From contig NZ_KB731324.1 of NCBI RefSeq assembly GCF_000353285.1, forward strand, positions 5,660,577 to 5,724,576: DNA of 64,000 bases. The letters are read 5' to 3'. Positions within the stretch are counted from its first letter, which is position 1; the number at the start of each line of letters is the position of its first letter. The notes beneath the pieces were generated by a model. The model was not told the origin of the DNA, made no database searches, and saw only the letters and a list, made by a program, of their open reading frames with translations. The position numbers and the translations under genes are program-made. This DNA is from Leptolyngbya boryana PCC 6306 (GTDB lineage Bacteria; Cyanobacteriota; Cyanobacteriia; Leptolyngbyales; Leptolyngbyaceae). This document shows, one piece after another, positions 9,381 to 36,314 of this stretch.

Positions 9381-11081
9381 TTATTTGACAACACTCCAGA
9401 CATTTGCAGATTGAGCTTCTGCGATCGTAGGACTCCCTTGCCCTTGCGCCAAGGGCTGCAACGCATCTGGAAAGACCTCATGATAGGCTGCCCGCACCTG
9501 GGTATTGACCGCCACCGTTTTCACGTCATACATCTGGGTCGCCACCTTGGGATAACACCCGATCGTAATAATCAACCCCAGAAAACAAACCGCAATAAAA
9601 ATCTCCCGGAGATTCGCATCCTTAAACTCTGCCTGCTCTGGTAACACACAGTCTGTCCCAAAACAGTTCGCCTCTTGGTTGCCCTGAGCCTTCAAATCTA
9701 GATCATTCAGATCACAAGCAGGCACTAAGTCACACATTTGATCAGCACTGGCTCCATGAAACACCTGCCGCACCATCGACAGCAGATAGATCGGTGTCAG
9801 AATCAACCCCACTGCTGCCAGGAAAACGGTCACCCAGCGAAAGGTCGAACTATAGATGTCCGTTGTAGCCAAGCCGACAAAAACCTCCAGCTCTCCGGCA
9901 AATCCACTCATCCCAGGCAAAGCCAAAGATGCCATTGTTCCAATCGTGAACAGAGCAAACACCGCGGGCATCGCTTCCCCCAACCCACCCAACTGATTCA
10001 TCATCATCGTGCGAGTGCGATCGTAGGTCACGCCTGCCAAGAAAAATAACACTGACGCAATCAACCCGTGGGAGAGCATTTGCAGCATCGCCCCACTTAC
10101 ACCCAAATCACTATAGGAAGCAATCCCCAGCAGCACAAACCCCATATGAGAAATTGAAGAATAGGCTAACCGCCGTTTCATATTGGTCTGTGCAAAGGAG
10201 TTTAGCGCCCCATAGACGATATTAACCACTCCTAAAATCACCAACACTGGCGCAAAATACACATGGGCATGCGGCAACAGTTCCATGTTCAACCGGATCA
10301 GCCCATACCCCCCCATTTTCAGTAATACTCCTGCCAAAATCATCGAGACTGGAGAAGAAGCTTCGCCGTGGGTGTCCGCCAGCCAAGTATGAAAGGGGAA
10401 AATCGCCAATTTGACCCCAAACGCCACCAGCAGTCCAGCATACAAAAACAATTCCAGCCCTAAGGGAAACTCCCTTAACCCGAGTTCAGCAATATCAAAG
10501 GTGAGCGTATCCCCATAGAATCCCATCCCCAGGGCTGCCACCAAAATGAATATCGAAGCCAGCGCCGTATACATCAAGAACTTCGTCGCTGCATAGCCCC
10601 GATTTTGTCCGCCCCAAATGCACACCAGCAAATAGACCGGAACCAGTTCCACTTCCCACATGATGAAGAACAGCATCAGATCTTGGGCCACGAACACCCC
10701 CACTTGGGCAGCATATAGAACCAACATCAGGGCGTAGAACAGGCGCGATCGCCGATCCACCTGCCAGGCGGAAAACATCGACAGCGTCGTCACAAACCCC
10801 GCTAACAGCACGAGCGGAGCCGAAATACCATCCACCGACAGCGCCCAACTCAAGCCCAACTGCGGTAACCAAACCACCTTTTCTGCCAGTTGAAATGTCG
10901 CTTGGCTCGCGTCGTAATGCTGCCAAAAGGCATAGGACATCAGGACAAAATCAGCCATGCCAACCCCCAAAGCATACCAGCGGACAGTCTTGCCGCTTTT
11001 ATTAGGGATCAAAGGAATGAGCAACGCGGCTACCAACGGCAGTAGGACGATCACGGTCAGCCACGGGAATTGTTCGATCAT
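9381..11081 (-). CDS. ndhD: NAD(P)H-quinone oxidoreductase subunit 4 (NdhD)
   Basis: Membrane subunit of the proton-pumping arm of NDH-1, which carries ferredoxin-to-plastoquinone electrons in respiration and cyclic flow. The 566 residues contain about 14 membrane segments and family signatures: '[19 protein letters not shown]' with the conserved Glu, '[20 protein letters not shown]' with the functional Lys, '[19 protein letters not shown]', '[13 protein letters not shown]'. It looks like the NdhD1/D2 type rather than the CO2-uptake D3/D4 type, though the paralogue cannot be fixed here. No ndhF lies nearby. A hydrophilic loop before the last helix holds two Cys pairs, which is unusual. Confidence 0.92.
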
Positions 11082-26650: not shown

Positions 26651-27391
26651 TTAGAAACCAAACAACGTTACCAAAAACAGCAACACAATAAACGCCGCGC
26701 CTCCATAGAATAAACCGATCCAGGCTTTTTCTAAGCTTGCGGGTGGATTCTTTTGCCAAGCCCAACGCAGGTAATCCAGGCGAGCAGAATCTCTGCGGTT
26801 GCCTCTCAGGGTCGGTTGAGGCAGTTTATCTCGGTAATCCTCGCCATAGCGTGCGGTGTGAGCAAACGTCACTTCGCCTTGCGATCGTTGAGGCAAAATG
26901 CGGCGACGTTGATACGGCACAGTATTTTCGCCAAAAGTGGTCAAGTATTCTTCACTGTTGAGCAACTGCTCGACAAATCCCTGCAATCCTTTGGTTGCAA
27001 GCACGATCGACCAAGCAATTTTTTCGCGATCGCCATATACATTTCGTCCCAAAACGCGCTGAATGCAAAGCTCAACAAATCGATAATTGTTGTTGCTTTC
27101 ATAGTTGAGTCGCCGGAAGGAATCAGACAGCAGCAAGCCAGCGATGAATCCTTTGACGGTGATTTGTCCCGATCTCAACTGTGATTCTAAAAACTGTTGG
27201 CGATAGTAACTGAGCATTTGTTGCTCATTAAAAATCTGACGATAAGCTGCTGTGATCAATGTATCAAAGTCAGTTCTAGACAGGAGATTATCGGTTGTGT
27301 AGATCCGAGGCTGTTCATCACCTGGAATCTCAAATCCTTCGACTCGATGATTTTGAGAAACGGGGGGATAGGTTAAGAGAGACATGGACAT
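26651..27391 (-). CDS. cpcL: CpcL (CpcG2) membrane-anchored phycobilisome rod linker
   Basis: A 246-residue linker. The PBS linker domain (about 30-185) contains 'RIYTTDNLLSRTDFDTLITA', 'QIFNEQQMLSYYRQQFLESQ', 'GFIAGLLLSDSFRRLNYESN' and 'LGRNVYGDREKIAWSIVLAT'. The C-terminus has a single hydrophobic helix ('AWIGLFYGGAAFIVLLFLVT' to the end), which separates CpcL from the core-attaching CpcG. CpcL holds rod-only phycobilisomes at the thylakoid membrane that feed photosystem I. The ATG at 27391 or 27385 may be used. Upstream lies a CcaR-type direct repeat, and ccaS follows 6 bases downstream. Confidence 0.9.
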   Translation of the reverse strand: MSMSLLTYPPVSQNHRVEGFEIPGDEQPRIYTTDNLLSRTDFDTLITAAYRQIFNEQQMLSYYRQQFLESQLRSGQITVKGFIAGLLLSDSFRRLNYESNNNYRFVELCIQRVLGRNVYGDREKIAWSIVLATKGLQGFVEQLLNSEEYLTTFGENTVPYQRRRILPQRSQGEVTFAHTARYGEDYRDKLPQPTLRGNRRDSARLDYLRWAWQKNPPASLEKAWIGLFYGGAAFIVLLFLVTLFGF

Positions 27392-28382: not shown

Positions 28383-28811
28383 CTAGTCTATTTTGGGTGG
28401 ATGTTCTCCGAGTTTGATCCAGAGTCGTCTTGTGCGGACGAGCTGTGGACGATTCATCTGTAAGGCTGCGATCGTAGTTCGACCAACAGGAGTTAATCCA
28501 ATCAGTTCTACTCCTTTTTCCTGCCATGCAAAGTGTTCTGCCCAAATTTGCTGATGGGGATGGAAGAGGGGCACAGTTTCATGAGTGACTGGGTCGATCG
28601 CGTTTTGGTGATTTGATTTATGACGGTTGCAAAATGGGCAGGCAAAGCAGAGGTTTTCATATGTTGTTTCGCCGCCTGCTGCACGTGGCACAATGTGCTC
28701 GAATTCAAAGGTCATAGCGGTCAGTGCTTCTGCGGTGTGGCAATAAGCGCAGCAGTTAGCGAAGCGATCGCGTACTCTTCTTTGTAGATCAACAGGAATG
28801 TAGCCGCTCAT
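28383..28811 (-). CDS. HNH endonuclease
   Basis: A 142-residue HNH nuclease: first zinc knuckle 'NCCAYCHTAEALTAMTFEFE', the catalytic 'HIVPRAAGGETTYENLCFAC' and the second knuckle in 'CPFCNRHKSNH', followed by the 'DPVTHETVPLFHPHQQIWAE' tail typical of cyanobacterial HNH proteins. Its ATG overlaps the stop of the upstream gene by ATGA (28808-28811), so the pair is translationally coupled, like a toxin-antitoxin module. The in vivo target is unknown. Confidence 0.85.
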   Translation of the reverse strand: MSGYIPVDLQRRVRDRFANCCAYCHTAEALTAMTFEFEHIVPRAAGGETTYENLCFACPFCNRHKSNHQNAIDPVTHETVPLFHPHQQIWAEHFAWQEKGVELIGLTPVGRTTIAALQMNRPQLVRTRRLWIKLGEHPPKID

Positions 28812-29152
28812 GATGCCTGTGCGAGGTCTTTGTTTTGCTGTAATGTATACCGCGCACGGGTTTTTAGAAGCGTGAGAGCGTCGGCTTCAGCTAAAAGTTG
28901 ATCGAGTTGAGTGATTTCTGTCTCGGAGAGTTGATCGTTTGTTTGTTTTTCGAGTAAATCGTCTAGTCGAGTTTGATCGGTTGGGGCGAGTTTGCAATTG
29001 GCAAGGGCATGAAGTTCTGTGGGACTGATGCCGATCAGATAGTCTGGGTCGGCTGTGGGGGAATTAACCAAGCGTTGATAGTGGTCGAGGTCGAGGATGA
29101 CACCAACGCGATCGCCTTGTTCATTGACGAGGTAACGGGCTGAGTCAGACAT
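28808..29152 (-). CDS. Small protein coupled to the HNH nuclease (antitoxin-like N-terminus)
   Basis: The ATG at 29152 gives 114 residues; an upstream in-frame ATG at 29200 adds a basic, unlikely leader. The N-terminus 'MSDSARYLVNEQGDRVGVIL' then 'DLDHYQRLV' resembles Phd/YefM-type antitoxins; the rest is a helical, acidic domain ('ETEITQLDQLLAEADALTLL'). The same helical region recurs in the protein at 59313-59708. ATGA overlap with the HNH gene argues that the two work as a unit, possibly inhibitor and nuclease, but this is inference. Confidence 0.6.
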   Translation of the reverse strand: MSDSARYLVNEQGDRVGVILDLDHYQRLVNSPTADPDYLIGISPTELHALANCKLAPTDQTRLDDLLEKQTNDQLSETEITQLDQLLAEADALTLLKTRARYTLQQNKDLAQAS

Positions 29153-29271
29153 AAAAAAATGGCTTAATTTTTTTCTATTGCTATCGTATCGTCTGGGCAA
29201 AAGGTTGGCTCAGGCATGATTGACTTCTTCTATGATTTCGATGAAGGGGCGATCGATAAAAAGCAGAGACG

Positions 29272-30069: not shown

Positions 30070-30894
30070 TTGAAAACCGATTCCATCTTTTACAAAATTT
30101 TCCAACTCTTTCCCAGTGCCTTTTTCGAGTTAATTGGCGAGGATGATCCACGGACTGTGACTTATGTCTTCACATCTCAAGAAGTGAAGCAAACAGCATT
30201 CCGGCTCGATGGCATCTTTATGCCTCCGACTCGATTGCGCCAATTTCCCATCTATTTCGTAGAAGCGCAGGCATACAAAGAGAAACGGAACTTCTACTAT
30301 CGCTTCTTCAGTCAAATTCATCTCTATCTCAACGATTACGAGCCTGTAAATGCTTGGCAGGCAGTGGTGATTTTCACAGAGCGACGTTTTGATCAAGCTT
30401 TGCCGCATCACTATTCGGAGTATGACAATAATCCAAGGTTGCAGCGCATTTACTTGGATGAATTGCCGTCGGATGTAAGCGATCGTAGTCTCGGGTTGTC
30501 CTTGTTAAAGCTGTTGGGAACGAAACCGAAAGAGGCTCCAGCAAAAGGTCGATCGCTCATTGACCGAACTCGGCAAGAACTCACAGATTTGACCGTCCAG
30601 CGAGATTTTATAGAATTAGTGGAGACGGTCTTCGTTTACAAATTTCCAAAACTATCTTTTAGCGAGGTCGGTGAAATGTTAGGGCTTGGCGATTTAAAGC
30701 AAACACGGGCATATCAAGAAGCGCTTCAAGAGGGACGCGAAGAAGGACGTGAAGAGGGACGCGAAGAAGCGCGGAAGGAGTATCTAACCCGTATGGTTCC
30801 AAAGCTCCTTCAGAAAGGCTGGACTGTTGAGGAGATCGCTGAAGATACGGGAGTTTCAGTAGAGACTGTGCAGGAATTTATCACTCAGGAATAG
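30070..30894 (+). CDS. Rpn-like PD-(D/E)XK nuclease family protein (DUF2887)
   Basis: A 274-residue protein of the Rpn/DUF2887 group found in many copies in cyanobacteria. Opening 'MKTDSIFYKIFQLFPSAFFE' (TTG start at 30070), then 'FRLDGIFMPPTRLRQFPIYF' and 'VEAQAYKEKRNFYYRFFSQI', which carry the Asp and the E-x-Q of the PD-(D/E)XK nuclease core. The C-terminal third is a helical region with a REEG repeat ('EGREEGREEGREEARKEY') and a short HTH-like end ('WTVEEIAEDTGVSVETV'). Recombination-promoting nuclease activity is known for Rpn relatives; here it is inferred. Confidence 0.75.
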   Translation: MKTDSIFYKIFQLFPSAFFELIGEDDPRTVTYVFTSQEVKQTAFRLDGIFMPPTRLRQFPIYFVEAQAYKEKRNFYYRFFSQIHLYLNDYEPVNAWQAVVIFTERRFDQALPHHYSEYDNNPRLQRIYLDELPSDVSDRSLGLSLLKLLGTKPKEAPAKGRSLIDRTRQELTDLTVQRDFIELVETVFVYKFPKLSFSEVGEMLGLGDLKQTRAYQEALQEGREEGREEGREEARKEYLTRMVPKLLQKGWTVEEIAEDTGVSVETVQEFITQE

Positions 30895-31258
30895 GTACAA
30901 CACAATCTGGATTGCGAACCAAGCATCGATCGAGCAAGCTGATCTCTTGATTTGTTCTCGTAGGCACGATCTCGTCCGAAACATTGTGCAACCGAAGTGG
31001 AGAATTTTTCCTGTGTCTCAAAATGGGATAAATGGGACGAGTCAAATGAAGAGAGTCGGGAAGTTGCAAAAAAGTTTGTGCTGGCAAACTGCTATGACCC
31101 CAAGGTTGTCTGCCTGAGATTTGAGTGGGGGAAATCTTTCAAAAACGTTCGTTAGGGGGAAAATGTGCAGTGCCAGGTATCGAATTTCTGAAAGGTCGGT
31201 AAATTATGGAATAGCTAAGCATTTATAAACCTTTAAAAATCTCTAGAACTGGCTAGTG
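30895..31258. other. 364-base intergenic region without recognised gene
   Basis: Lies between the 3' ends of the convergent DUF2887 and NACHT-GUN4 genes. A 68-codon minus-strand frame (30881-31087) is basic, lacks a ribosome site and resembles nothing known. No terminator with a T-run was found. Confidence 0.5.
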
Positions 31259-33523
31259 TTAAAGTTCACAAGTCGCTGCGCGAGAGAAGAGATGCCATTC
31301 TAGACCGCCAAAAGCATCCACAAAACGCCAACCAAAAGGAAATTTCCCGCTAAGAGATTTATCTAGGTCGTATGTGAGGTCGTCGATCCAGCTCCCATCC
31401 TTGAGCCAACTGACGCGATCTCCAAATTTTTCCCAATCGTCATTGTATTCCATCGGGCTACCGCATTCCTGCCAGATTCGCTTCTGTACACTGAAGCCCC
31501 ATTTGCCATTGCTGTACTTCACCCACAGTTGATCTAGTATCCGCAAATCTTCACAAGGAAAGTTTTCGAGATCTTCACGATTGAACCATTGCCCTTCTTC
31601 CTTACCCACTGTTGTAATCATCAGCCGATAGGTTTCTTTATCTGCCGCTTTCCATTGCTGAGTGCTTAATAGTTCCTCAAGCATTTGATAGCGCAAGGTC
31701 TTTACCTCAGCTTCAGCTTCCCGCAGTGCATTCAGTTCCGCCAAATCCTGCTGAAGGTCAGCATCAATTCGTTTGCTCGTTTCCTGACAGCAAGCATCGG
31801 CAAGATCCTTAAAACCTTGAGACAACGCTGTGCGAATCAGAGTACTAGGTTTTTTCACCTGTGCCGCATACAGCAAAATCACAGGCTTCCACCAGTCTTC
31901 GCCAAACCGTTCATACAGCAAACTCTCCTCACCTCGCCGCACCACTTCCTTTGCTGCCAAAAACTCTTGAAAACTGAGATGCGAAAACTCAAACTCCTCC
32001 GATTCTCTCTGCACCAAAAGTTCACTAATCTGCTCAATCTGCCTCAAAAAGTCCGCAGGCGCGATCGATTCCTCTTGAGCTTTTAGATATCCCTCCAGTC
32101 GCTTCAGCAAAACCGCTTGCTCGACTCGTTCTTCTTTTTGCTGCATCATTTCCAGCGCCAACATTTGCAAGATGACTTGCGCTGTTGCATATTCATCATT
32201 GTCCCCTGTAAGCCAAGTTTCAAGATCCCTTGCGCCAGGACGATCGCGCAATTGCAGCACACAGATTTCTTGATACAGTTCTACTCGACGTTTTGGCAGC
32301 TTGCTACTGGGATAGCGTCGATGAAACATTGCAATCATATTCAGCAGCAGTGGATTTTGTGACAGATCTGCCAACTCCTGCCGCTGGTTGATTTGTTTGA
32401 GTAAATCATCCGCCGCATCTTGAGCCGCTTTCCGCACGGCTGGAATATCTTCTTTACCGTGGTGATAATATTCCTGACACCAGTACCATTTCTCCACAAA
32501 AGCTTTGCGCTGCGGTTCATTAAAGTTTCTGACGTACAGCAGCGAATTAAAATCGATGCGATCGCTACTGGTTTGCTCGTTGTAAGCCTTCGGTCGCGCT
32601 GTGAGAATAAACAGCGATTTACGATATTTTTTGCGCTGAGCATTCAACCAACGTGCCACGAGCGGACGTTTTGCCTTCGGAACTTCATCAAAGCCATCCA
32701 ACATCACCAGCATTTTGCCCTGCTCTAGCATCGCCTTTGCCCAATCGGTCGGCATTTTCAGATCCGCGATCGGCAAGCTAGGAATGTGATGCTGCATGAT
32801 CAACTCTGGCAAACTCGGCGGAGTCTCCTGGCTCAAAATCTCTCGGTACTTCCGCAGCAGTAACAAAACTGGAATATATCGCGTAACCTCTTTAGGCTGC
32901 TTATTTCTGCCTAAGCTATAAGCGATGTGTCGTAGTAACGTCGTTTTGCCATAGCCACCCCAAGCCAAGATTGCAATTTCACTATAAATCGCATCCCGCT
33001 TTGCCCGTGCCAGCAAATCCCAAATACTCACACCCGAAGCCTGCAACCGTTCCAAATCTTCAAGCGATCGAGAAAATCCTGGAGATGCCATACGTCCATC
33101 AAATTCTAGCGGCACAAAGACTTGCTCTAGCATTGGTGTAAAAATGCCGCTAATCTTCGCCATTCCTTCGGTGCTACAAGTTTCACACTCTGCCGCCTGC
33201 GCCTCAAAATATCGATCCTCGGCTGAAGTCAGTTTTGCGATCGCTTGTTCTCCGAATTGATCCAGCTTTTTGTTAACGACTTCTCCAGCTTTTTCTAACC
33301 GCTGTTGATTGCCTTTATGAATCGGCTCTAGCAACTTCCCAGCATAAGAGAAACAAAATCCAATCAAAGTTGAGGCGATCGCTTCACTCACTTTGTGTTC
33401 GATCAGCAAGAGCCACAGCCCATATCCTCCGCCTAGACCAATCCCACCCGGCTTCAGCACTTTGACGAGAATTTCTGCAAGCTGTTCTGGAATAGAAGCT
33501 TGTTTCGAGGGTTCTTCAGGCAT
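31259..33523 (-). CDS. NACHT ATPase with C-terminal GUN4 domain
   Basis: A 754-residue STAND-type protein. The N-terminus (about 1-130) has two glycine-rich hydrophobic stretches and a helical linker. The NACHT ATPase has Walker A 'GGYGKTTLLRHI' (189-200), Walker B 'LVMLDGFDEVPKAK' (272-285), sensor 'FILTARPKAY' and the C-terminal 'SHLSFQEFLAAKEVV' helix. The last 143 residues (from about 612) are a GUN4 domain: 'LEELLSTQQWKAADKETYRL', 'LRILDQLWVKYSNGKWGFSV', 'KFGDRVSWLK', 'FPFGWRFVDAFGGLEWHLFS'. GUN4 binds porphyrins in chlorophyll synthesis; here it takes the usual sensor position. Likely a tetrapyrrole- or stress-triggered switch; output unknown. Confidence 0.85.
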   Translation of the reverse strand: MPEEPSKQASIPEQLAEILVKVLKPGGIGLGGGYGLWLLLIEHKVSEAIASTLIGFCFSYAGKLLEPIHKGNQQRLEKAGEVVNKKLDQFGEQAIAKLTSAEDRYFEAQAAECETCSTEGMAKISGIFTPMLEQVFVPLEFDGRMASPGFSRSLEDLERLQASGVSIWDLLARAKRDAIYSEIAILAWGGYGKTTLLRHIAYSLGRNKQPKEVTRYIPVLLLLRKYREILSQETPPSLPELIMQHHIPSLPIADLKMPTDWAKAMLEQGKMLVMLDGFDEVPKAKRPLVARWLNAQRKKYRKSLFILTARPKAYNEQTSSDRIDFNSLLYVRNFNEPQRKAFVEKWYWCQEYYHHGKEDIPAVRKAAQDAADDLLKQINQRQELADLSQNPLLLNMIAMFHRRYPSSKLPKRRVELYQEICVLQLRDRPGARDLETWLTGDNDEYATAQVILQMLALEMMQQKEERVEQAVLLKRLEGYLKAQEESIAPADFLRQIEQISELLVQRESEEFEFSHLSFQEFLAAKEVVRRGEESLLYERFGEDWWKPVILLYAAQVKKPSTLIRTALSQGFKDLADACCQETSKRIDADLQQDLAELNALREAEAEVKTLRYQMLEELLSTQQWKAADKETYRLMITTVGKEEGQWFNREDLENFPCEDLRILDQLWVKYSNGKWGFSVQKRIWQECGSPMEYNDDWEKFGDRVSWLKDGSWIDDLTYDLDKSLSGKFPFGWRFVDAFGGLEWHLFSRAATCEL

Positions 33524-33663
33524 AAAACTTTCGATGAGAGGCTCTATTTCTTTCTAGCGCAGAAATCCAAAACAAGCGCATTCAGAAAACCTCTTTCCTG
33601 AAAAACCAGTCAAAAACTAGAATGAAGTCGCGCTTCTCGTTTGAATTCAAGTGCGATCCACAG

Positions 33664-34041
33664 CTATTCTTCACTGTTATTGGTTTGATTATTGGGTTGC
33701 TCGCGCTGAAAAAATGTTCTAGTCAGCGTCTTTAACGTGACTGGTTCCTGCTCTTTGCGGCGTTTGCGATGTTGTAGCGCAGTTGTGCCTCGGCGACGTT
33801 GCCGCGATCGCGCAACACTTTCCACGCCCTCGTCATGCACCCGTCTTCGAGTCGGTTCGATGTTCTCTTCTTTCGACAGCCACCAATCGACGATAAATCC
33901 GCTTGCCGTTCCCCCGATCGCGCCGAGTGCAATACTAAACAGCGCTGGATAGCCCAGAGCATAGAGGCTAATTAGAAATAACAGCCAAATCTGAAGCCCA
34001 ACGGCAAAGCCTTTAGATACTGGTTCTCCTTTCTCAGCCAC
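33664..34041 (-). CDS. Small membrane protein with basic C-terminal tail
   Basis: A 125-residue protein with two adjacent membrane helices ('GFAVGLQIWLLFLISLYALG' and 'LFSIALGAIGGTASGFIVDW') joined by a short turn, then a strongly basic, probably disordered tail ('RSRQRRRGTTALQHRKRRKE'). It resembles small cyanobacterial membrane proteins of unknown role. It ends about 140 bases upstream of the NACHT-GUN4 gene on the same strand; whether they are linked is unknown. Confidence 0.55.
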   Translation of the reverse strand: MAEKGEPVSKGFAVGLQIWLLFLISLYALGYPALFSIALGAIGGTASGFIVDWWLSKEENIEPTRRRVHDEGVESVARSRQRRRGTTALQHRKRRKEQEPVTLKTLTRTFFQREQPNNQTNNSEE

Positions 34042-34096
34042 GATCGTTCATTCCTAAGTTTCTCTATGAGGATACAGGCGAATGCACAATGTCGGT

Positions 34097-34759
34097 CTAA
34101 TTATTATGAGGATTTTTCAAGACTTCTGAGAAAAAAGTCTCAACCAATTTTGGTTTTTCTGTTTCTAGAATCGGGCTTGCTGAAATGAGTTGACACATTT
34201 GGGACGATAAGAATGCGATGTAGAGCGTATCTTCGTCTAATTCTTTCACAACATAAACTTGCTCATCAGACGTCGCTTGCGCCAGAAGATGGTTGATTAG
34301 GATTAAAGCTTGTGCAGTCGAATAGTTCCATTTAGTCAAACTATGTGATTGATCAAGCACTCCCGGACAGAGTAAGAACATATTATGATTCAGGATAATT
34401 CCTTTATCTCCCTTCCCTGTCCAATATTCATCGATTGCAGCTATCAAAACGCCTCGACTTTCCAAAACAGGTTGCATAGCTTCAAACCAGTCAGGAAAGC
34501 ACTCATAAAAATCTTCTCGGCTGATAGCAAAAAGACGATTGTAAGGACGTGGATGGTGTAGCCACAATACTCCTTCAATGATTTCTGTTTGGTCATCTTC
34601 TACTGCCGAAGCTAAATCAATATGCTGTTGCTGACCCTCTGTTAACCAAGGTGAACTGTTTTTTTCAGAAAGGCTTTTCAATACTGACATCATGCCAGGT
34701 TCTTCATGTTGGTAAAATCCCAGTCTTTCAAGCTGGCTCAACAATTCTTCCACGGTCAA
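34097..34759 (-). CDS. Hypothetical protein, 220 residues
   Basis: I do not recognise a family. It is soluble and acidic, with helical ends and a central mixed region ('YNRLFAISREDFYECFPDWF', 'GILNHNMFLLCPG'-like strand, 'STAQALILINHLLAQA'). There is no signal peptide, membrane segment or nucleotide motif. HIP1 sites are absent from the coding region. The spacing to the upstream kinase gene (about 60 bases, with a hairpin) suggests a separate transcript. Confidence 0.5.
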   Translation of the reverse strand: MTVEELLSQLERLGFYQHEEPGMMSVLKSLSEKNSSPWLTEGQQQHIDLASAVEDDQTEIIEGVLWLHHPRPYNRLFAISREDFYECFPDWFEAMQPVLESRGVLIAAIDEYWTGKGDKGIILNHNMFLLCPGVLDQSHSLTKWNYSTAQALILINHLLAQATSDEQVYVVKELDEDTLYIAFLSSQMCQLISASPILETEKPKLVETFFSEVLKNPHNN

Positions 34760-34783
34760 AATCGCCAGATTACAAGGGGTATA

Positions 34784-34812
34784 GGGGCAGAAAATCTCTG
34801 CCCCACTTTTTA
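34784..34812. terminator. Hairpin between the kinase and hypothetical genes
   Basis: GGGGCAGA (34784-34791) pairs with TCTGCCCC (34797-34804) around 5 bases; the T-run (CTTTTTA) lies on the plus-strand side, although both flanking genes run on the minus strand. It may still end the kinase transcript or stop antisense transcription. Confidence 0.4.
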
Positions 34813-34820
34813 CGCTTACT

Positions 34821-36314
34821 TTAGCTCAGCGTTTTAACCAGTGGCTTTTCCGTCTCGCTAAACGCTTCAAACGTTTGGTTTGCTAGGACATCGAGATCAG
34901 CATCGGAAATGTCCCCCTGTCGCTGCGCAACGCGATCGCGTAAAACTTCCGCCGGAACATCACAGTAGAGAATCTCAATCTCAATGCTCTGTGCTTGTGC
35001 TTTCTCAATCACGGGAGCGCGTAAAGCTTGACGATCGTACTTCGCATCCAAGATCACGGTATAGCCTTGAGATGCTAAAGTTGTGCCGAGTTCTAGTAAG
35101 CGATCGTAAGTCTTCTGAGTCATCTCAGGACTGTAAAGTGAAGCATCGCCTTTCTCATCCAACGCCACGCCACCTAAATGCTTACGAACTGCATCAGAGC
35201 GAATTTGAATGGCTCCAGTTTCACGGGCTAGTTTAGATGCGATCGTACTTTTCCCAGATCCAGAGAGTCCCGACATCAGAACAATCTTGCCTTGTCTCGG
35301 TTGCGTATACTCCCACGACAATCGATAGTAACGGCTAGCAGTTTCTTTCGATTCTGCCTTCACGGATTCTGGAACACTCGGATCACTCAGTAAGAATGAA
35401 GTAACTTTCGCTCGAACATAAGACTGACGGCTATTGTAAAGTGGCAAAACTTGTAAGCCTTCCCAGTCGCCCGATTGTTCGAGATACGCATTCAAAAACA
35501 GATTGCTTAGATCCCGACGATTCCGAGCATCAAAATCCATGATGATGTAAGCAACGTCGAACATCGTATCGACGAATCGGAACGGCTCATTAAACTCAAT
35601 GCAATCGAACAAAAGAATCTTATTGTTCCAGAAGCAGATGTTTCTCAAATGAACATCGCCATGACATTCTCGGATAAATTTATGTTCGACTCGGCTTTTG
35701 AAAAGGGCTGCACTCTCAGCAAATAGCTTGTCGGTGTAAGCTTTCGTCTGATCAAATTGTTCTTGAGTCTGAGCCACTCCAATATAGCCAACCGTTTGAT
35801 CGTAGTTTTCGTCGATCGCTTGGCGAATCTGAGACACTTCCCCAAAGCTGAGAATGTAATCATTCGTCGGTGCAGATTTGTGGAATGCTGCTAAAACCTT
35901 TGCTAAATCGAGTAAATGCTGCTCGGTGAGTTCTCCACGATCGTACATGGCACTCAGCAATGTCTCTTGAGGAAATTGCTGCATTTTCACCACATAATCC
36001 ACGACTTCGCCTGAACCATCCAGCACAAACTTGTCAGCATCTTGCGTAATCGGCACAATGCCCAAATATAATTCTGCTGCACCGCGTTTGTTCAGCCGCA
36101 ACTCTTCCTCACAGAAATGTTTGCGTTTTTCCAAAGTGGAATAGTCCAAAAAACCGAAATTCACAGGTTTTTTCAGCTTATAAACATAGTCTCCGGTGAG
36201 AAAAACATAGGAAACGTGAGTCTGAATTAACTCGATCTCGCCTTGAACCGGATGATCATAAATTTCGGGATTGAGCAGCGCTTCAACGATCGGGGGAAGA
36301 GTTGTCGTCGTCAT
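34821..36314 (-). CDS. Fused phosphotransferase-like and P-loop kinase protein
   Basis: A 497-residue two-domain protein. The N-terminal half resembles aminoglycoside phosphotransferase/choline kinases: 'YVFLTGDYVYKLKKPVNFGF', 'RECHGDVHLRNICFWNNKIL' with the catalytic HGDxHxxN, and 'LFDCIEFNEPFRFVDTMFDV'. The C-terminal half is a zeta-toxin/gluconate-kinase-like P-loop: 'VLMSGLSGSGKSTIASKLAR' (about 338-357), then 'GYTVILDAKYDRQALRAPVI'. Such fusions are common in bacteria, with unknown substrates. The start ATG at 36314 lies next to several ACGAC repeats coding a Thr run. Confidence 0.75.
   Translation of the reverse strand: MTTTTLPPIVEALLNPEIYDHPVQGEIELIQTHVSYVFLTGDYVYKLKKPVNFGFLDYSTLEKRKHFCEEELRLNKRGAAELYLGIVPITQDADKFVLDGSGEVVDYVVKMQQFPQETLLSAMYDRGELTEQHLLDLAKVLAAFHKSAPTNDYILSFGEVSQIRQAIDENYDQTVGYIGVAQTQEQFDQTKAYTDKLFAESAALFKSRVEHKFIRECHGDVHLRNICFWNNKILLFDCIEFNEPFRFVDTMFDVAYIIMDFDARNRRDLSNLFLNAYLEQSGDWEGLQVLPLYNSRQSYVRAKVTSFLLSDPSVPESVKAESKETASRYYRLSWEYTQPRQGKIVLMSGLSGSGKSTIASKLARETGAIQIRSDAVRKHLGGVALDEKGDASLYSPEMTQKTYDRLLELGTTLASQGYTVILDAKYDRQALRAPVIEKAQAQSIEIEILYCDVPAEVLRDRVAQRQGDISDADLDVLANQTFEAFSETEKPLVKTLS

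Follow-up and report, generated by a model that had tools for sequence, protein, structure and literature searches.

A hypervariable GUN4 tail and a conserved DNA element in a NACHT-type ATPase of Leptolyngbya boryana: possible diversification of a sensor loop

In a 64,000-nucleotide stretch of the Leptolyngbya boryana PCC 6306 genome (contig NZ_KB731324.1, positions 5,660,577 to 5,724,576; here called the window), a single gene encodes a NACHT ATPase fused to a GUN4 domain. The end of this domain, where canonical GUN4 proteins have a ligand-binding motif, is hypervariable among relatives, and it is followed by a DNA element that is conserved irrespective of the reading frame and that at some loci has a transposase gene next to it. 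From these comparisons we suggest that the protein is a STAND-type switch whose GUN4 sensor carries a binding loop diversified at the DNA level and rewritten by a local, transposase-linked process. We hold this reading tentatively and place it just short of an even chance. The diversification would act on the ligand loop of immune-like sensors, perhaps through nicking and untemplated extension, and a role in defence is putative.

The NACHT-GUN4 protein and its ligand loop

The gene lies at positions 31259 to 33523 on the minus strand and consists of one open reading frame of 754 amino acids with an ATG start. The NACHT domain (residues 190-346, positions 32486 to 32956, minus strand) matches Pfam PF05729 with 53.8 bits (cut-off 26.7), and the GUN4 domain (residues 608-730, positions 31334 to 31702, minus strand) matches PF05419 with 114.6 bits (cut-off 29.2). 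With this NACHT profile, a P-loop (AWGGYGKTT) and a Walker B-like acid box (DGFDE), the last two identified by eye, the protein is a NACHT STAND ATPase. An AlphaFold2 model of residues 590-754, made with 86 sequences, has a pLDDT of 88.7 and aligns to Synechocystis GUN4 with bound deuteroporphyrin (4xkb and 4xkc; Z 19.8, 138 residues, 1.9 A) and to phycocyanobilin-bound GUN4 (7e2t; Z 19.7). The domain belongs to GUN4 both by sequence profile and by fold, and the fusion described in an initial annotation of this DNA is borne out. Judged by its domain order, the protein is a STAND-type (NLR-like) ATPase switch with GUN4 in the usual sensor position, again as that annotation had it, and by architecture it is kin to caspase, TIR and kinase fusions.

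The Pfam GUN4 match stops where the variable region (VR) starts. In the window the VR comprises 44 nt after the GKFP codons (31293 to 31336, minus strand), and in the model of residues 590-754 the pLDDT drops to 57 in block 141-150, which is the VR segment. After the conserved GHLP-type turn, the C-termini of the relatives diverge from one another. In canonical GUN4 the motif LxNxLR follows directly after GHLP and its Asn is close to the bound bilin, according to the available text of PMC10156173. The VR stands where canonical GUN4 has LxNxLR, and judged by this register the hypervariable segment occupies the ligand-loop position of GUN4. When the canonical domain and that of the window are aligned locally as a pair, the alignment ends before GHLP; the register is based on the GHLP-type turn that both share and on the structural alignment, which runs to the last residue.

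From all loci, 150 distinct tails were pooled, and tails retrieved twice were counted once, by sequence. Parsing succeeded for 118 of these (the window, 90 named tails and 27 unnamed ones); 32 were dropped from the VR statistics (3 with a stop and 29 rejected by the parser for other reasons). LxNxLR after GHLP is absent in 118 of the 118 parsed tails, the window included; single residues of the motif occur as N at +3 in 2 tails and as R at +6 in 14. In the canonical GUN4 of the L. boryana genome the motif is intact, with the sequence GHLPLSNQLRGVRV. The Arg of LxNxLR is presumably R211 of Arabidopsis GUN4. Changes of R211 weaken porphyrin binding, that of Mg-porphyrin most (PMC8967248, in the text available), and GUN4 paralogues without LxNxLR were already noted by Rockwell and Lagarias (PMC10156173).

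The initial annotation had proposed that tetrapyrrole build-up triggers the switch, a reading that goes with a conserved porphyrin pocket. The fold, with its Z of 19.8 to porphyrin-bound 4xkb, would suit such a switch, and porphyrin binding can outlast the loss of the bilin motif: in Chlamydomonas GUN4 the Asn is required to bind bilin but not to bind porphyrin, and an algal N219G protein loses the former and retains the latter, as the available part of PMC10156173 reports. However, LxNxLR is missing throughout the parsed tails, and the pocket loop is itself the hypervariable segment. The trigger as originally worded is not supported, and we regard a tetrapyrrole-triggered switch as improbable. 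The annotation had also stated that a GUN4 domain without the porphyrin pocket residues would speak against it; here LxNxLR is indeed lost, but the N219G protein shows that porphyrin binding may survive such a loss. Going by the tails, their ligand is probably not a fixed tetrapyrrole. Not every GUN4 domain should be taken as a pigment sensor.

A conserved DNA element and the replacement of the variable region

Directly after the VR follows a conserved DNA box, TCTCTTCTCTCGC...GACTTGT; the window copy, box1, is TCTCTTCTCTCGCGCAGCGACTTGTGAACTT (31262 to 31292, minus strand). The last residues of the relatives are mostly of three types, SSLAQRLVNC..., LFSRAETCEL and LLSRRDL, which correspond to one DNA sequence read in three frames. 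In the window the frame used gives LFSRAATCEL, and the other frames still encode SSLAQRLVNFNTSQF and LLSRSDL. Among the parsed tails, 56 use the FSR.ETC frame, 28 the LSRRDL frame and 34 the SLASRLVNC frame, with identities of box1 to the consensus of 0.861, 0.850 and 0.857 by frame. Box1 is equally conserved in every frame and thus conserved as DNA. A second conserved box, box2 (TCGATACCTGGCAC, 31170 to 31183, minus strand), ends a cis element of 119 nt with conserved spacing, which reaches from TTCTCTCGC to TACCTGGCAC (31170 to 31288, minus strand, in the window copy). Box2 TACCTGGCAC is found in 84 of the 150 tails, at a spacing of exactly 119 nt in 55 and of 120 nt in 15.

Scanning species genomes with the box pattern gave at least 119 stretches (L077-L195). 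Of the 80 loci listed, 79 are cyanobacterial; the remaining one (L095, Anaerolinea) was counted among the matches and is taken as chance. These 80 loci contain 82 matches, 72 of them with the GUN4 motif in an open frame (34, 19 and 19 in the three frames), and the other ten include some GUN4 genes that run off the locus or contain a stop, three orphan-like copies and the Anaerolinea match. In 88 genomes of the phylum the pattern occurs 30 times, in 16 genomes, while a reversed control pattern gave 0 matches; in IMG/VR viral contigs there were 0 matches. The L. boryana genome has one copy of the box motif at up to 2 mismatches. Box copies without a GUN4 gene are present at L091, L092 and L132, and L092 retains box2 and a transposase relic. 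Tandem hairpin repeats, AAAAAGCCCCCCTTATCAAGGGGGG, directly follow the box region downstream in L050, L051 and L055, and a box2-like site at position 9828 of the window is a chance match. Alignment A1 omits 18 of the 103 GUN4 segments. On the coding strand of the element, RNAalifold and averaged pairing give only a box1 hairpin (mean pair probability up to 0.24); on the opposite strand, columns 25-31 pair weakly with columns 40-46 (up to 0.22). An Rfam search of window positions 30500-34900 gave no match up to E 1, and a terminator scan found none in 31100-33700.

The VR measures 17-118 nt with a median of 56.5 in the 118 parsed tails. VR lengths and identities were counted to TTCTCTCGC and so include about four box bases, e.g. 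48 instead of 44 nt for the window. The 3' edge is sharp, rising from 0.07 bit at position -5 to 1.2-2.0 bits at -2 to +8. In composition the VR is rich in G and T, with a G+T fraction of 0.67, 0.70 and 0.73 at codon positions 1, 2 and 3 compared with 0.55, 0.50 and 0.51 upstream. A G+T content of at least 80 percent is reached in 34 of 110 VRs and in 0 of 110 equal-length windows upstream. Runs and neighbour frequencies were analysed in the 110 VRs that are 34 nt or longer. Homopolymers of five or more bases consist of G in 59 cases, T in 16, A in 1 and C in 1, and the neighbour frequencies are near random (GG 1.11 and TT 1.13 of expected).

Composition alone predicts that 39 percent of the tails would be open, while 118 open tails were found against 3 with a stop in the VR. 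From this excess the GUN4-tail proteins seem to be under selection, although the 29 tails otherwise rejected by the parser could hide more stops. Direct copies of 12-24 nt from at most 66 nt upstream occur in 5 of 118 VRs (swapped control: mean 0.3, highest 2). Apart from these few, no local source exceeds the swapped control, so the VR as a copy of its local flanks was rejected.

The turnover of the VR is best seen in pairs of related tails, chosen to be 0.85 or more identical over the 240 coding bases that precede the VR, and 0.80 or more in the middle of the element, which is non-coding and weakly conserved. In 10 of 12 such pairs, which are not all independent as some loci enter more than one pair, the VR is at chance identity (at most 0.61; random mean 0.466, 95th percentile 0.615), and its length differs in all 10. 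For example, L050 and L051 from the same genus have an identity of 0.95 before the VR, 0.44 within it and 1.00 in the mid-element; L147 and L185, both from Xenococcus PCC 7305, have 0.93, 0.51 and 1.00; and two copies on one contig (L193) have 0.89, 0.32 and 1.00. Compared in this way, the VR is shown to be replaced wholesale up to the DNA box, which would be rewriting and not drift. Concerted evolution of the elements between paralogues was not seen in the pairs listed (element identity down to 0.65 at a coding identity of 0.93).

A wholesale replacement could also come from cassette exchange or gene conversion between paralogous tails, and some genomes do contain several GUN4 tails. However, only 9 VR pairs share any 14-mer, 3 of these between closely related loci, the L. 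boryana genome has the single box copy described above, and an exchange of cassettes would leave the G/T bias unexplained. We find this origin highly improbable.

Alternatively, a diversity-generating retroelement (DGR) could rewrite the tail by adenine-directed errors. Shorter reverse transcriptases (RTs) of an IGNLTSQ type, a motif that we take to be DGR-like, are present in three of the genomes with the element (G043, G063 and G127), so that DGR-like enzymes coexist with it there. The window VR has its best adenine-rule match in the 64 kb at 0.82, against a mean of 0.78 and a highest value of 0.795 in 20 shuffles. DGRs are moreover known to diversify C-terminal sensors of NACHT and ternary systems, as described in the accessible text of PMC10907252 and PMC7517822. 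On the other side, the VRs are not of constant length but vary in length (17-118 nt) and in frame (all three). When 99 VRs were compared with their own loci, the best adenine-rule match was at most 0.84, equal to the highest control, and the average was below the control mean; the test is rough, the control tails having been trimmed to at most the length of the query. A template should match almost completely, which the 0.82 of the window does not approach, and no near-complete adenine-rule template was found in the own loci of the 99 VRs or in the 64 kb of the window. No RT is found among the 25 largest neighbour clusters of 80 loci, and the RTs of the L. boryana genome (L070 and L072) and of G052, G106, G060 and G032 (one each) are of a long QGxxxSP type. 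By sequence, L070 and L072 look like group II intron enzymes. DGR action is thus disfavoured by the variable length and frame together with the lack of a near-complete adenine-rule template in the regions searched, and we consider it hardly credible. The RT matches of the L. boryana genome are confined to contigs C2 and C3; L070-L076 (on C3, one on C2) are intact and broken RT genes, mostly clustered on C3 at 182-193 kb.

The convergent transposase gene and possible mechanisms

Clustering the open reading frames of 80 loci (L077-L156) shows that the largest cluster after GUN4, from 16 loci, is a convergent gene just past the element. This gene, tnpA, encodes a Y1 HUH transposase: three full-length copies match PF01797 with 67.9, 67.3 and 73.7 bits, and the motifs NHVH/NHIH and YIHANP were found by eye. 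Loci where tnpA beside the element appears full-length include L088 (Trichormus NMC-1), L107 (Stenomitos frigidus ULC18) and L114 (Nostoc CMAA1605). Matches to the NCBIfam profile NF047646 (RAYT) of 72 and 67.9 bits are below the cut-off of 80, and the enzyme appears to be close to the REP-associated (RAYT/IS200-type) group, short of the RAYT profile cut-off. No solved structure matches tnpA by sequence up to E 10. In 34 of 34 hits the gene is convergent, and 27 of the 28 hits that reach the C-terminal end are 95-183 nt from the box. Counting partial copies, tnpA or a relic of it is present at 30 of 112 element loci (L077-L195, among the matches listed). The association appears strong in geometry and not universal, and it is likely that the element and the HUH enzyme belong together.

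The window itself retains a relic of the C-terminal end of an RAYT/IS200-type transposase, convergent with the NACHT-GUN4 gene (31015 to 31155, plus strand, the frame running to a stop that ends at 31155). In this relic 37 amino acids align at 59 percent (31015-31125), and it is the sole tnpA match in the L. boryana genome. As only a transposase relic is found there, the VR of the window looks frozen, and its loop is probably what earlier diversification left behind, now fixed.

HUH enzymes keep the 5' end of the DNA that they cut bound to a tyrosine, while the 3' end is left free. We suggest that a local, strand-specific process could rewrite the VR, in which (i) the transposase would nick the top strand at the border of VR and box1 and hold box1 by its tyrosine, (ii) the free 3' end would be trimmed and extended, mostly without a template and at times after slippage onto the flank, before the two ends are rejoined, and (iii) selection would then retain open frames and useful specificities. 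The new loop would change what the switch senses. A cut at this border, followed by trimming, untemplated or slipped extension of the 3' end and rejoining, would leave the VR with a 3' edge that is sharp, a 5' edge that is soft, and a random length and frame. Its composition would be biased by strand, and now and then it would contain a direct copy of the flank upstream. These are the features seen. In its most specific form, this would be an RT-independent system where a domesticated RAYT/IS200 HUH transposase cuts at the conserved box in the 3' end of GUN4 genes and untemplated, G/T-biased DNA of random length enters the ligand loops of NLR-, TIR-, caspase- and kinase-type sensors, a bacterial counterpart of junctional diversity in antigen receptors; this form we think possible, yet rather doubtful.

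Several points weigh against a transposase-linked rewriting of the loop. No tnpA is detectable at 82 of the 112 element loci, although 104 of the 112 have room for it, and in the 88 genomes only 13 of 28 tnpA hits of this subfamily (at least 46 percent identity) are beside an element or a GUN4 tail. The VR is kept in 2 of the 12 pairs (L097/L137 and L051/L055), and L179, with a poorer element match, also shares the VR of L097; the rewriting is thus not constant. When four elements were folded, three had a 4-5 bp hairpin in box1, and the overall fold was not significant (z -0.97 to 0.41). The turnover is read from comparisons between tails, and we know of no RAYT that adds nucleotides.

The loci without detectable tnpA would fit with an intrinsically unstable, G/T-rich tract (prone to G4 formation or slippage) under relaxed constraint, in which the transposase would be a passenger fond of the site. 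The VR is indeed G/T-rich, 59 of its 77 runs of five or more are G, and some VRs duplicate the flank. However, it has no repeat units, its neighbour frequencies are the near-random ones given above, and the replacement is wholesale and not a gain or loss of units. An unstable tract would further leave unexplained why an element of fixed spacing is conserved as DNA over three frames, and why tnpA is convergent at this element in every one of its 34 hits. We judge this explanation unlikely.

The transposase-linked reading has also to be weighed against the proposal that the 119-nt element and tnpA form a selfish, IS200/RAYT-like element that targets the 3' ends of GUN4 genes, so that the VR would be no more than a footprint of repeated insertion and excision. 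That tnpA is a Y1 transposase of which partial copies are common, that orphan boxes exist at the three loci named above and that box2 flanks tnpA on both sides in L107 all agree with such an element. But 72 of the 82 listed matches end GUN4 genes, in one orientation, the 118 open tails against 3 stopped in the VR favour a selected function, and the carriers are mainly signalling or immune fusions. We judge the selfish element, too, an unlikely explanation. In L107 the two box2 copies (4302 and 5247) are in direct orientation and lie beyond the end of a gene that resembles an FGE-sulfatase domain by eye; the doubled box2 is possibly a trace of element movement.

Carriers, related systems and genomic setting

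The architecture recurs in other genomes, as the initial annotation had led one to look for. Searching with the whole protein, matches at E<=1e-40 were obtained in 33 of 386 genomes of a phylum sample, several along most of the length. Within the order, a match of some kind at E<=0.001 is present in 41 of 42 genomes, in many of them owing to the NACHT part only, and the long relatives in these 42 genomes are 41-63 percent identical to the window protein. Across the phylum the relatives are patchy, and some genomes have several copies. A Pfam census of 86 element-bearing GUN4 proteins gave GUN4 in 86, a kinase in 24, NACHT in 23, a caspase in 12, TIR_2 in 10 and CHAT in 2; it covers 86 of 103 GUN4 open reading frames, leaving out 14 shorter than 250 amino acids and then the 3 longest of the remaining 89. 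By these domain assignments, the carriers of the tail are mainly signalling or immune-type fusions with kinase, NACHT, caspase or TIR.

The L. boryana genome (7.26 Mb in 5 contigs) has four GUN4 domains, in the canonical 239-residue GUN4, a TIR-like protein of 339 residues, a protein of 205 residues on contig C2 and the window protein. In the TIR-like protein (L002, C1:509932), whose TIR part was identified by eye, the GUN4 domain is 48 percent identical to that of the window; the tail helix YSLAQRLASC is kept and the DNA box is not. Its tail perhaps represents the ancestral state of the GUN4 tail.

Fusions of GUN4 to signalling domains, with a proposed sensor role, are in print (available text of PMC7159879 and PMC8195603). 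The cyanobacterial GUN4 multidomain proteins of Davison 2005, as cited by Kaur et al. 2020 (PMC7159879), likewise combine GUN4 with kinase, caspase, trypsin or TIR and were proposed as allosteric sensors. However, tetrapyrrole binding is assumed there, and a hypervariable tail, a cis element or a transposase is not described in the part of that source available. Canonical GUN4, a magnesium chelatase cofactor, shares the fold and the residues up to GHLP, whereas the window domain is without the LxNxLR pocket motif and is fused to NACHT.

The anti-phage kinases of type PD-T4-6 are also related. Their PADLOC profile PDLC04062 spans kinase and GUN4 and gives 240-594 bits in the three element-bearing kinases tested. 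The window protein matches it only in residues 592-732, aligned to the GUN4 end of the profile. Pfam finds no protein kinase domain in the window protein, which is therefore not a PD-T4-6 defence kinase. Since the profile includes GUN4, PADLOC calls on GUN4 proteins without a kinase may be false.

To our knowledge, targeted diversification of bacterial coding DNA is the work of DGRs, apart from cassette switching or slippage. The DGR-diversified NACHT and ternary conflict sensors (PMC10907252, PMC7517822, in the text available) are similar in that fusions with NACHT, TIR, kinase or caspase have a diversified ligand domain at their C-terminus, near the 3' end of the gene, and occur in multicellular cyanobacteria. 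They differ in that the ligand domain is a C-type lectin there and GUN4 here, and the changes here are G/T-rich and alter length and frame. Further, the enzyme here is an HUH transposase and not an RT, and no template repeat was found in the loci and 64 kb examined. The main text of PMC10907252 on DGR hypermutation of NACHT- and TIR-linked sensors, as far as available, does not mention GUN4. The RAYT, or TnpA-REP, system (PMC6006769, in the available part) resembles ours in linking a Y1 HUH transposase gene to a short conserved extragenic element. In contrast, the present element sits at the 3' ends of genes from a single family, next to a coding segment that is hypervariable, it shows no strong palindrome in the four copies folded, and the NCBIfam RAYT score is below the cut-off.

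As far as we could find, the open-licence literature describes neither the DNA box read in three frames, nor the G/T-rich loop of variable length, nor its link to a transposase. While GUN4 fusions with their proposed sensor role and DGR hypermutation of sensors are already known, the diversification of the GUN4 tail would be new, its mechanism being the conjectural part. If true, it would represent a second way of diversifying immune sensors and might also yield new tools.

The initial annotation had also suggested a membrane-acting N-terminus and looking for defence genes nearby. A hydrophobic glycine-rich stretch is present near the N-terminus (about residues 27-66), but it is only weakly hydrophobic (Kyte-Doolittle mean of 1.21 over the best 19 residues), and the full-length model has low confidence in this part, with blocks of pLDDT 32-50 up to residue 80; the idea of a membrane effector is weak. 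Among the neighbours scanned, a set of ten and a set of seven, there is neither a defence island nor a tetrapyrrole-synthesis gene. These neighbours include HNH, weakly antitoxin-like and DUF2887 genes, rplY, purA, a histidyl-tRNA synthetase-type gene, chorismate synthase, a phycobilisome linker (26651-27391) and glycosyltransferases. The HNH endonuclease gene (28383-29200) has PtuB-like PADLOC scores and adjoins a small gene with a weak Phd/YefM antitoxin match. The DUF2887 protein (30070-30894), which has a C-terminal helix-turn-helix, is encoded near the transposase relic.

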